This document shows, in pieces, positions 21,932 through 30,465 of a DNA stretch of 33,872 nt. The notes under the pieces are model-generated. The model had not been told where the DNA came from. It did not search any database and saw only the letters and a list, made by a program, of their open reading frames with translations. Source of the stretch: Candidatus Woesearchaeota archaeon (lineage in GTDB: Archaea; Nanobdellota; Nanobdellia; SCGC-AAA011-G17; JACPNG01); assembly GCA_017609525.1 (NCBI GenBank), contig JAFCDT010000011.1:1-33872 (forward strand), given 5' to 3'. Positions within the stretch are counted from its first letter, which is position 1; each line of letters opens with the position of its first letter. The position numbers and the translations under genes were made by a program.

Positions 21932-23386
21932 ATGCACATACTAACAAAATCCAAATATTTGGCTGGTTTAGAATGCCCGAGATATCTGTGGGTTGTATTT
22001 AATCAGCCTGAAAAGATAAGGAAAGCCACAATAGCTGAAGAGTTCAAGTTTAAAGAAGGAGATAAAGTGGGCCAGATGGCTAAAAAACTCTTTCCTGAAG
22101 GCATAGATCTGCCTACAGACTATAAAGAAAATATCAGGAAAACTAAAGAAGCTTTAAAGGAGAAAAAGCCTTTATTTGAGGCTGGATTTGAGTTCAATAA
22201 CTGTTTCTCAAGAGCGGATATCTTAGTTCCTGTAGGTGATGAATGGGACATAATAGAAGTAAAATCCGGAACAAGAGTCAAAGATATTAATTTTCATGAT
22301 GTTTCTTTCCAGAAATATGTTTATGAAGGAAATGGATTAAAGATAAGAAAATGCTTTCTTTTGCATCTGAATAAAGATTTTGTAAGAAATGGAGAGGTAG
22401 ATGTTGAAAACCTGTTTGAGAAAGATGATATAACTGCTGATGTAGAAAAAGCAATCAAAGGAATAGATAAAAGAATCAAGGAATTATTTGGGTTTGTTTC
22501 TTTAAAAACTCCTCCAAAGGCAGGACTTTCTTTAACTAAAATGTTTAAAGATGGCCATCATGACTGTTTTGCGGAAGGATGTGTTGATTTACCTGAAAAT
22601 CATGTATTCTGTCTTTATCGTGGGAATAAATTAGCCTGTGAACTATATGAAAATGGTGTTGAAACAATAAAAGATATTCCTGAAGATATTAAACTGAATG
22701 TAAAGCAGAAAATCCAGAGAGGTTGTGAGATTAATGGGAAAATCTATGTTGATAAGAAAGGAATTAAAGAGTTCATGAAAAAACTGCAATACCCCCTTTA
22801 TTATCTGGATTTTGAAACATTTTCTACTGCTGTTCCTATGTTTGATGGTTTAAAGCCTTATTCTCAGGTTTGTTTTCAGTTTTCTTTGCATGTTGTTAAG
22901 GAAGAAGGAGAAAAGCCCGAACATTATGAATTTCTTTATGATGGAAACGAAGATCCAAGAGAAGAGTTTATTTTAGCTTTGAAGAAAGTGTTAGGTGATA
23001 AAGGTTCTGTTGTTGTTTATAATCAAAGTTTTGAGATTAACAGGTTAAAGGAGTTGGAAGAACAGTTTCCGGAACATAAAGACTGGGTTGAATCTGTTCT
23101 GAAAAGAGTTGTTGACCTGCTTATTCCATTCAGAGAGTTTAGTTATTATAATCCCAAACAGCAAGGCTCAGCTTCAATTAAAAAGGTCCTTCCAGCTTTA
23201 TGTGGCAAAAGCTATGAAGGAATGGAAATAGATAACGGAGGATTAGCTTCAGTTGAGTTTTATAATATGGCTTATGGGGATTGTAAAGATAAAGAAAAAA
23301 CCAGAGAGAATTTACTAAAATATTGTGAAATGGATACTTTAGCAGAGGTTATGATTGTTGAGAAGTTGGGGGAATTGGTTGAATAA
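21932..23386 (+). CDS. DUF2779 family protein: Cas4-like PD-(D/E)XK nuclease plus DEDD exonuclease-like domain
   Basis: MHILTKSKYLAGLECPRYLW, ADILVPVGDEWDIIEVKSGT (D...ExK), YYLDFETFSTAVP, VVVYNQSFEINRLKEL, YCEMDTLAEVMIVEKL. Confidence 0.85.
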   Translation: MHILTKSKYLAGLECPRYLWVVFNQPEKIRKATIAEEFKFKEGDKVGQMAKKLFPEGIDLPTDYKENIRKTKEALKEKKPLFEAGFEFNNCFSRADILVPVGDEWDIIEVKSGTRVKDINFHDVSFQKYVYEGNGLKIRKCFLLHLNKDFVRNGEVDVENLFEKDDITADVEKAIKGIDKRIKELFGFVSLKTPPKAGLSLTKMFKDGHHDCFAEGCVDLPENHVFCLYRGNKLACELYENGVETIKDIPEDIKLNVKQKIQRGCEINGKIYVDKKGIKEFMKKLQYPLYYLDFETFSTAVPMFDGLKPYSQVCFQFSLHVVKEEGEKPEHYEFLYDGNEDPREEFILALKKVLGDKGSVVVYNQSFEINRLKELEEQFPEHKDWVESVLKRVVDLLIPFREFSYYNPKQQGSASIKKVLPALCGKSYEGMEIDNGGLASVEFYNMAYGDCKDKEKTRENLLKYCEMDTLAEVMIVEKLGELVE

Positions 23387-25133
23387 GATTATATATTTTT
23401 ATCAGCAATTGAACAGAGTCATTTATTTTGAATTTATCTAATTCTTCTTTTGAAGATATGTAATCGTAAATATTGTGTGCTTTTGGATTAATTTCGTTTC
23501 TTATTTTATCCAACAATTTTTTTACTTTTTCTATGTATCTTTTGATATTGCTCGGAAAATCGGATCTATTATTATATAAATTCCTTATAAGCGGGCTTAG
23601 CGTCAAAGGTTGATTAAATTCTTTATTCCACCAGATCTCTTCGTCTTCTTTTTTAGGAAATTTCTTCTCTAAAATATTATACAGAAGATTCTCAACTAAT
23701 TTTCTAGATAAAAAGAAAGTTGCATTTAGATAACCATTTTTATAACATTCATTGATTTCTTCTTCTAAAGGATAATAAAATTTATCTGGATAATCACCTT
23801 TTATATCTATAAACTTATCTTCTTTTAATGGTTCCGTTATAACTTCCGGAACTTTTACTAACGTTGGCTTAGATTTTGCTTTTTTCTTTTTTCCGGTTTT
23901 TGTTTTTTGTCTTGCTTTTTTCTTATGTGATTCTTCGTCACTTCTTAGATCAATAAATAACTCTCTTATTGAAATCTGAACAAATCTTGTTAAATCTTGA
24001 AATTCCTGATTAGCAATTACTCCTTCCCTAGTTGTTGTGTCGATTATTTTAGGATTCTTTGATTTGCTAATATGAACCATACCAAATATTGCATTATTTC
24101 TTGGACTCATAGTATTGTTTTGTGCAAATAGATCTAACTCCGCCCAATCATTTCCAGGTTCACCATAAGGTTTAACTCTAAAATTGTCTCTATAGATCTT
24201 AATTCCATGATATTCTTTTAAAGTATCATTTATTTCTTTAATATCTTGTTTTGACATTTCATAATTTAGGGCATCTTTAAGATATTTTGAATTTTTATAA
24301 TAAAAGAACAATTCAAAAACCGCATCCCCACAAGATAGTTTTTTATCAAGAACTATAGTGTCTTTCTTTTTCTTTCCTGTTATAGTTACGAATTCATATT
24401 GAATTCTGTTCCCGCTGATTATTTTTGTTTTTAAATAAAAAGAAGCTTTATTCAAGAAATTTTTACGAATTTTTTTAAATTGTTTAACTTCTTTATGGAA
24501 CTTTGGGATTATTTTAAAGTTTTTGGAAGATTTATTCGGGGGATTTAACAAATATATGTCTCTTAATAGACTTTTTTGTATATCTATGTCATTCCAATCA
24601 TGTTTTAGATCTTTTATTTCAATCTTAGTTCCACATTCTTTCTTTTTTTTCTTAAACTCATACCCCTTATTTATTACTTCGTTACACAAAACATTTGGTT
24701 TTTGGTATTCTTCCCAATTGAAGATTATTTTATAACCCTTTGTCTCATTTTTTGGGTATGTGTAGAGGATGGTTCTTTTGCCAAGACTTTCAGAAGACAG
24801 TCTTCCAATTCCTTTCTCTCCAACAGGAATCCTTTCTCCGTTGTTTATTTTGATAATTTTGGATTTATTTGGTGTTGCTATATTCATCCATTTGTTTTCT
24901 ATCTCACTACTACCCATCCCGTCTCCATTGTCTGAGATTGTTATTGAAGCGTTTGTTGTATCAATCTCATTAAGGTTTATCTCTACTTTTTTAGAATTAG
25001 CATCATAAGAATTTTTTATTAATTCCAGTATAGCAATATTTTTATTACTAATTGATTCTTCCCCAAGTTTTCTTATAATATTTCCACTTACCTTAAACCT
25101 AAAAGGTATATAATTATTATTTTCATTAGTCAT
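23349..25133 (-). CDS. GHKL (Hsp90/MutL/MORC-like) ATPase with basic linker and C-terminal DUF4145/HEPN-like helical domain
   Basis: ILELIKNSYDANSKKVEI (motif I), ITISDNGDGMGSSEI (motif II), PVGEKGIGRLSSESLGKRTILYT (motif III), basic KKKARQKTKTGKKKKAKSK linker, C-terminal FFLSRKLVENLLYNILEKK...LLDKIRNEINPKAHNIYDYI. Confidence 0.85.
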   Translation of the reverse strand: MTNENNNYIPFRFKVSGNIIRKLGEESISNKNIAILELIKNSYDANSKKVEINLNEIDTTNASITISDNGDGMGSSEIENKWMNIATPNKSKIIKINNGERIPVGEKGIGRLSSESLGKRTILYTYPKNETKGYKIIFNWEEYQKPNVLCNEVINKGYEFKKKKKECGTKIEIKDLKHDWNDIDIQKSLLRDIYLLNPPNKSSKNFKIIPKFHKEVKQFKKIRKNFLNKASFYLKTKIISGNRIQYEFVTITGKKKKDTIVLDKKLSCGDAVFELFFYYKNSKYLKDALNYEMSKQDIKEINDTLKEYHGIKIYRDNFRVKPYGEPGNDWAELDLFAQNNTMSPRNNAIFGMVHISKSKNPKIIDTTTREGVIANQEFQDLTRFVQISIRELFIDLRSDEESHKKKARQKTKTGKKKKAKSKPTLVKVPEVITEPLKEDKFIDIKGDYPDKFYYPLEEEINECYKNGYLNATFFLSRKLVENLLYNILEKKFPKKEDEEIWWNKEFNQPLTLSPLIRNLYNNRSDFPSNIKRYIEKVKKLLDKIRNEINPKAHNIYDYISSKEELDKFKINDSVQLLIKIYNLIQPIPPTSQQS

Positions 25134-30217: not shown

Positions 30218-30465
30218 TTGGCTAACTCCTTCACAGCATCAGCAGGATCCTTTAATTTATATAGTCTTTTTCTGGAGTCTTCAGGATCTAATGTTAAATC
30301 CAGCCAGCCGAATTTTTTAAGTCTTGAGAGGACAATACTGGTATTGGTTATCTTCAGTAAATCTTCTGCCTGCTGGTGGGTAAACTGCTTATCTTTGAAT
30401 TTAAACCATAATTTAGAATAGTGCTTCATAATCCATTTTGGAAGAGGAGATATTAAATTACCCAT
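30214..30465 (-). CDS. Small winged-helix/HTH protein, possible operon regulator
   Basis: 83 aa: FTHQQAEDLLKITNTSIVLSRLKKFGWLDLTLDPEDSRKRLYKL (wHTH pattern). 4-nt ATGA overlap with the helicase gene. Confidence 0.65.
   Translation of the reverse strand: MGNLISPLPKWIMKHYSKLWFKFKDKQFTHQQAEDLLKITNTSIVLSRLKKFGWLDLTLDPEDSRKRLYKLKDPADAVKELAK

Follow-up and report, generated by a model that had tools for sequence, protein, structure and literature searches.

Two restriction-modification modules probably arranged in tandem in an operon of a Woesearchaeota archaeon

Five genes that overlap or nearly touch on one strand of a woesearchaeal contig encode two DNA methylases, a Vsr endonuclease, a nuclease-helicase and a GHKL ATPase, and raise the question of whether their products act jointly as one defence system or belong to separate systems placed side by side. 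The contig constitutes the whole of the window analysed here (33,872 nt) and derives from a 785 kb genome assembled in 66 contigs and approximately 86% complete; Cdc6-like and wyosine-base genes identify the source DNA as archaeal, and the size of the genome suggests that it is probably a member of DPANN. The reading that we favour, with a probability of roughly 0.7, is that two restriction-modification (R-M) modules lie in tandem in one operon, the ATP-dependent nuclease (hereafter HEL) being the cognate restriction enzyme of module A and a paraMORC ATPase the effector of module B. Two separate virus-defence modules side by side provide the best explanation of the observations set out below.

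The five minus-strand reading frames recognized in the initial annotation are real and tightly packed, and their coordinates stand. Module A comprises a small DNA-binding protein of 83 residues (30214-30465), HEL with 915 residues (27470-30217), the proposed restriction enzyme of the module, and a beta-class N6-adenine methylase of 316 residues (26545-27495) that homology places in the M.RsrI family. Module B follows with a 470-residue fusion of a Vsr endonuclease to a C5-cytosine methylase (25126-26538) and a paraMORC-type GHKL ATPase of 594 residues (23349-25133) bearing a C-terminal helical, possibly HEPN-like domain. A putative archaeal TATA-like element, TTTATATA (30489-30496, minus strand), lies approximately 27 nt upstream of the ATG of the first gene, for which a leaderless transcript is plausible. 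Since the genes are packed on one strand behind this element a single transcript is likely, and the operon layout originally proposed is borne out. The start codons merit some revision: in the N6 methylase the annotated start at 27495 is probably five codons too far upstream, its homologs starting at the position of Met6 (MPNRSH), near 27480, which GGGAG precedes, and in the Vsr-C5 fusion the homologs start at the position of Met4 (MVDV), so that its true start is possibly near 26529.

The domain assignments first made for these proteins are confirmed, with ResIII/Helicase_C in HEL, N6_N4_Mtase in the adenine methylase, Vsr and C5 DNA_methylase in one chain, and HATPase_c_3 in the GHKL protein. 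Their translations retain intact catalytic motifs, namely the PTGTGKT Walker A and DEVHH motifs of HEL, DPPYN in the N6 methylase, PCQ and ENV in the C5 methylase, and the N, G1 and G2 boxes of the GHKL protein. It was overlooked at that stage that HEL contains an HNH_repeat and a putatively novel C-terminal domain, that the GHKL protein ends in a possibly HEPN-like region, and that the N6 methylase belongs to the M.RsrI family.

The locus had originally been interpreted as a single composite defence system, in which the five proteins would work jointly, with HEL and the GHKL protein as motors and two methylases marking two targets. The single transcript implied by overlapping or nearly touching genes on the same strand would suit such a system, and genes for SF2 helicases, Vsr and C5 methylases are frequent in GHKL operons (PMC2292703). 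The distribution of the genes speaks otherwise. HEL relatives of nearly whole length and 52-67% identity occur at nine further loci, in at least four phyla and in viral contigs, the survey outside the phylum being one scan of genome contigs, viral contigs, plasmids and phages. Their hosts are another genome of the same phylum (G130), a Bacteroidales MAG in which the HEL reading frame is interrupted, a cyanobacterium, an Obscuribacterales MAG and an alphaproteobacterium (G281), together with four viral contigs; a Micrarchaeota contig additionally encodes the N-terminal third of HEL (77% identical) before the contig ends. The same N6 methylase lies directly 3' of HEL in nine of the nine other loci that continue past HEL, with gaps of -4 to 43 nt in the seven measured, and the identities of HEL between pairs of loci correlate with those of the methylase (Mantel r 0.89; one in 10,000 permutations as high). 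The two genes are a conserved pair that diverges in parallel. Neither a Vsr-C5 nor a GHKL gene was found near this pair at any of the nine loci, the downstream sequence amounting to 2-7 kb in the six that were measured, or seven when L063 is counted. The GHKL genes of the alphaproteobacterium lie 0.6-2.1 Mb away from HEL, and groups of GHKL, C5 and Vsr genes exist without HEL. The modules thus each occur apart and are adjacent only here, the full five-gene set being unique to this genome among the data searched, and we regard the composite system as quite unlikely.

What kind of enzyme module A contains is indicated by the architecture of HEL. Its N-terminus (residues ~20-150) resembles restriction endonucleases of the Vsr/MTES_1575 type, the match to the MTES_1575 profile being weak, and D74, E87, N89 and H94 are invariant. 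An SF2 motor (~155-510) and an HNH_repeat or coupler segment (557-608) follow, the HNH_repeat being found in all seven HEL members scanned. SauUSI is the best match in the PDB to residues 158-604 by sequence (1.5e-70) and also the nearest PDB structure to the HEL model by fold, the full-length model being of moderate quality (pLDDT 69.8, pTM 0.41). The remaining C-terminal domain (~620-905, ~300 residues) is conserved and helical and gives a better-defined model when folded alone (pLDDT 81.6, pTM 0.78). A search of the PDB and BFVD with this fold returned nothing below E 0.001; weak winged-helix, BrxA and N.BspD6I-like matches were the only ones obtained and are not taken as evidence of a known fold, so that the model suggests a novel type of domain. 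From its position, its conservation and the weak winged-helix resemblance, we propose that this domain can serve as a target recognition domain (TRD). Elsewhere, a 490-residue protein (L007, 403-1875) carries only the N-terminal nuclease domain of HEL (45% identical over residues 19-146), without a helicase.

As a translocating nuclease that forms dimers, SauUSI combines a nuclease domain with a motor, a helical coupler and a TRD (PMC7913695), and HEL shares with it the single chain of N-terminal nuclease, SF2 motor and coupler. Together with mREase_IV as the top-scoring PADLOC model, this likeness would be compatible with HEL as a modification-dependent Type IV enzyme beside which the methylase is an independent orphan. 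The homology is, however, limited to the motor and coupler: HEL has a Vsr/MTES_1575-like nuclease in place of the PLD domain of SauUSI, the novel C-terminal domain in place of its SRA reader, and a linked protective methylase, and for these reasons it is not assigned to the SauUSI group. Moreover, if methylated DNA were the substrate of HEL, the marks set by the methylase that always accompanies it would make the host itself a target, yet the pair is kept in ten of ten loci. We consider a Type IV role highly unlikely.

The methylase itself is, on homology, an M.RsrI-family Type II enzyme. It matches M.RsrI with an E value of 4e-112 over residues 6-289, nearly its whole length and including DPPYN, and is of the same size (316 versus 319 residues) with no extra domain. 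This bears on the main rival reading, in which a Type III-like complex would be formed, a methylase dimer giving site recognition and HEL acting as the Res-like subunit. Mod of Type III systems is likewise a beta-class methylase, and the strict pairing and parallel divergence of HEL and methylase would be expected of such a complex. Here, however, the best Type III Mod model matches the methylase at only ~1e-14, far worse than M.RsrI, sister methylases adjoin stand-alone EcoRI-type restriction enzymes, and HEL has a conserved C-terminal domain of its own. In HEL the nuclease also precedes the SF2 motor, the order seen in SauUSI and HsdR, whereas the nuclease of Type III Res is C-terminal. With neither a Mod that has its own TRD nor a Res with a C-terminal nuclease, the locus falls outside Type III R-M; the analogy drawn in the initial annotation was wrong, and a Type III-like complex is unlikely. 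The same annotation had remarked on the lack of a separate specificity subunit, which is partly explained in that a Type II methylase possesses its own specificity and the C-terminus of HEL is a candidate TRD.

Evidence for the two-module reading, and for HEL as the cutter of module A, comes from the relatives of the methylase. Relatives with 54-65% identity adjoin EcoRI-family nucleases in the place of HEL. An Acinetobacter plasmid encodes a homolog of 64-65% identity next to a gene annotated as an EcoRI-family restriction enzyme, whose product keeps GNAIER, which we take to be the EcoRI recognition motif, and at nine viral loci a restriction enzyme of this family, 45-48% identical to that of Acinetobacter by tblastn, is next to the methylase. 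Members linked to HEL and members linked to EcoRI interleave on the methylase tree, where well-supported branches force at least two changes of partner (none of 500 shuffles gave a count as low). HEL and EcoRI are therefore alternatives beside one methylase lineage. In the window no EcoRI-like gene adjoins the methylase and HEL is found in that place; for want of the EcoRI-family enzyme the locus is not counted as an EcoRI/RsrI system, with which it shares a methylase of the same family and size but from which it differs in having an ATP-dependent SF2 nuclease instead. The decay of R-M systems is expected to proceed by loss of the cutter while the protector is kept. In a 246-kb virus-classed contig (L064) the methylase is intact and HEL is cut to its last 109 residues, positions 5670-6957 being 94.6% identical at the nucleotide level over 1,437 bp to positions 3101-4537 of L056 from G130. 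The role of HEL as cutter is supported by this loss of most of HEL with retention of the protecting methylase, and HEL is most likely the restriction enzyme of module A.

Because its sister methylases are linked to EcoRI-family enzymes, the methylase is inferred to recognize GAATTC or a closely similar site, for example RAATTY. Other methylases first assigned to GAATTC later proved to act on RAATTY (PMC3526280). GAATTC occurs 197 times in ~599 kb of the host genome against 263 expected (0.75; rank 8 of 64 palindromes), a mild depletion that other palindromes share. In the mechanism that we propose for module A, the methylase would mark GAATTC or an RAATTY-like variant in the host, unmethylated sites would be bound by the C-terminal domain of HEL, ATP would drive translocation by the SauUSI-like SF2 motor, and the stalling or collision of motors would lead to cleavage by the N-terminal Vsr/MTES_1575-like PD-(D/E)XK domain; HEL would hold the place that EcoRI or RsrI takes beside the sister methylases.

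A Type II-style methylase that operates with an SF2-ATPase-dependent nuclease having its own DNA-binding domain has a precedent in CglI and NgoAVII (BceSIV) (PMC4267653). These systems have separate R (PLD and B3) and N (SF2 and Z1) proteins, a C5 methylase and the site GCSGC, whereas module A has the motor fused to the nuclease and a methylase of the m6A type; the domain scan revealed neither a Z1-containing SF2 protein nor a PLD-B3 R protein, and module A is not placed with them. A search of the openly accessible literature yielded no publication in which an SF2 nuclease is paired with a methylase of the M.RsrI type. Module A has the look of a variant not yet described, although a prior entry in REBASE or in a subscription journal is possible. 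That HEL and its methylase amount to an unrecognized class of R-M system, with a SauUSI-like motor, a new TRD, a palindromic Type II site and exchangeability with EcoRI, is a tentative proposal to which we give a little less than an even chance. If HEL does restrict unmethylated GAATTC, one methylase lineage would be served by two unrelated restriction enzymes, a simple one of the EcoRI type and an ATP-driven motor nuclease. Their comparison would be a natural experiment on the contribution of a motor to restriction, and on the way in which an enzyme with a new DNA-recognition domain comes to match the specificity of an existing methylase. Since PADLOC has no label for the pair beyond 'Type II MTase' and 'mREase_IV', automated defence finders could split or miss such systems.

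The small protein at the head of module A is a probable winged helix-turn-helix (wHTH) regulator, a label that is backed by a homolog rather than by a significant profile match of its own. This homolog (44% identical; L053, 8491-8748), from another genome of the order, has a weak match to SarA/Rot winged-helix proteins (E 0.0037) and heads a cluster of PD-(D/E)XK, C5 and Vsr genes. The region concerned (L053, 5583-10713; G074) contains two adjacent C5-methylase clusters: one includes a GHKL gene, and the second, headed by the small wHTH homolog, includes a PD-(D/E)XK nuclease and, on the opposite strand, a gene for Vsr. In G130 the small gene that overlaps the start of HEL (L003, 361-684) encodes an Xre-type HTH protein unlike the 83-residue protein of the window, and the regulator of module A is, by this sequence comparison, apparently exchangeable. 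The same genome has a TIR-domain gene of 450 residues (L056, 4411-5763) approximately 25 nt after the HEL-methylase pair; the accessory genes joined to module A may thus vary.

Module B represents a theme already described. It counts as a paraMORC-type R-M module because the N, G1 and G2 boxes of its GHKL ATPase are intact and a DNA methylase adjoins it. GHKL ATPases in R-M operons with C5 methylases and Vsr have been reported (Iyer 2008, PMC2292703), as the initial annotation rightly stated, and the GHKL/methylase theme recurs in PMC8011034. The Vsr-C5 fusion scores above both family cut-offs, with 137.1 bits for the Vsr domain (TIGR00632/PF03852) against a cut-off of 97.85. In the GHKL protein the ATPase part occupies residues 1 to ~420, of which region 180-420 aligns with GHKL relatives while Pfam shows no S5 domain there, and a helical tail follows at ~433-580 (...RNEINPKAH...). 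The module shares with MORC/paraMORC operons and with BbrUII/HgiDII a GHKL ATPase adjoining a C5 methylase and Vsr, but differs in that Vsr and C5 methylase form one chain, the GHKL C-terminus is possibly HEPN-like, and NF050001 matches only the ATPase part (residues 11-184). The score of 75.8 bits against a cut-off of 550 excludes it from the BbrUII/HgiDII GHKL restriction enzymes. GTCGAC, the site of HgiDII and BbrUII, is not depleted in the host, where its expected counts are tiny. Plasmids of Deinococcus, Stenotrophomonas, Hymenobacter and Campylobacter carry relatives of the GHKL protein next to C5 or N6 methylases, and in two genomes of the same phylum (G106 and G183) such relatives adjoin Vsr and C5 genes, in each case without HEL; the viral contigs scanned contained no relatives.

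Fusions of paraMORC to HEPN (Ymh) domains in R-M neighbourhoods have been published (PMC3710099), and the GHKL protein shares with them a helical tail beside R-M genes, although here the tail remains below the cut-off of every Pfam HEPN family. The tail recurs in stand-alone proteins of ~240 residues; one such homolog weakly matches DUF4145 with an E value of 0.018. The AH motif (NPKAH) of the tail is conserved, but the catalytic Arg is not. The tail is possibly HEPN-like on these sequence grounds. Module B would operate as a Type II-like C5 system in which Vsr repairs T:G mismatches arising from m5C and the restriction or abortive-infection effector would be the paraMORC ATPase, whose tail is possibly HEPN-like, the abortive-infection role of the tail being put forward as a suggestion.

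Around the operon, a divergent DDE transposase gene (DDE_Tnp_1; 30612-31763) lies upstream and is possibly linked to the mobility of the operon. On the other side a convergent nuclease-like gene with DUF2779 and RNase_H_2 domains (21932-23386) shares 38 nt with the 3' end of the GHKL gene; the gene that precedes it (21184-21930) matches HhH-GPD below the threshold. Farther away are a LAGLIDADG-like gene (17619-18614) and a tRNA-Leu(AAG) gene (16256-16339).
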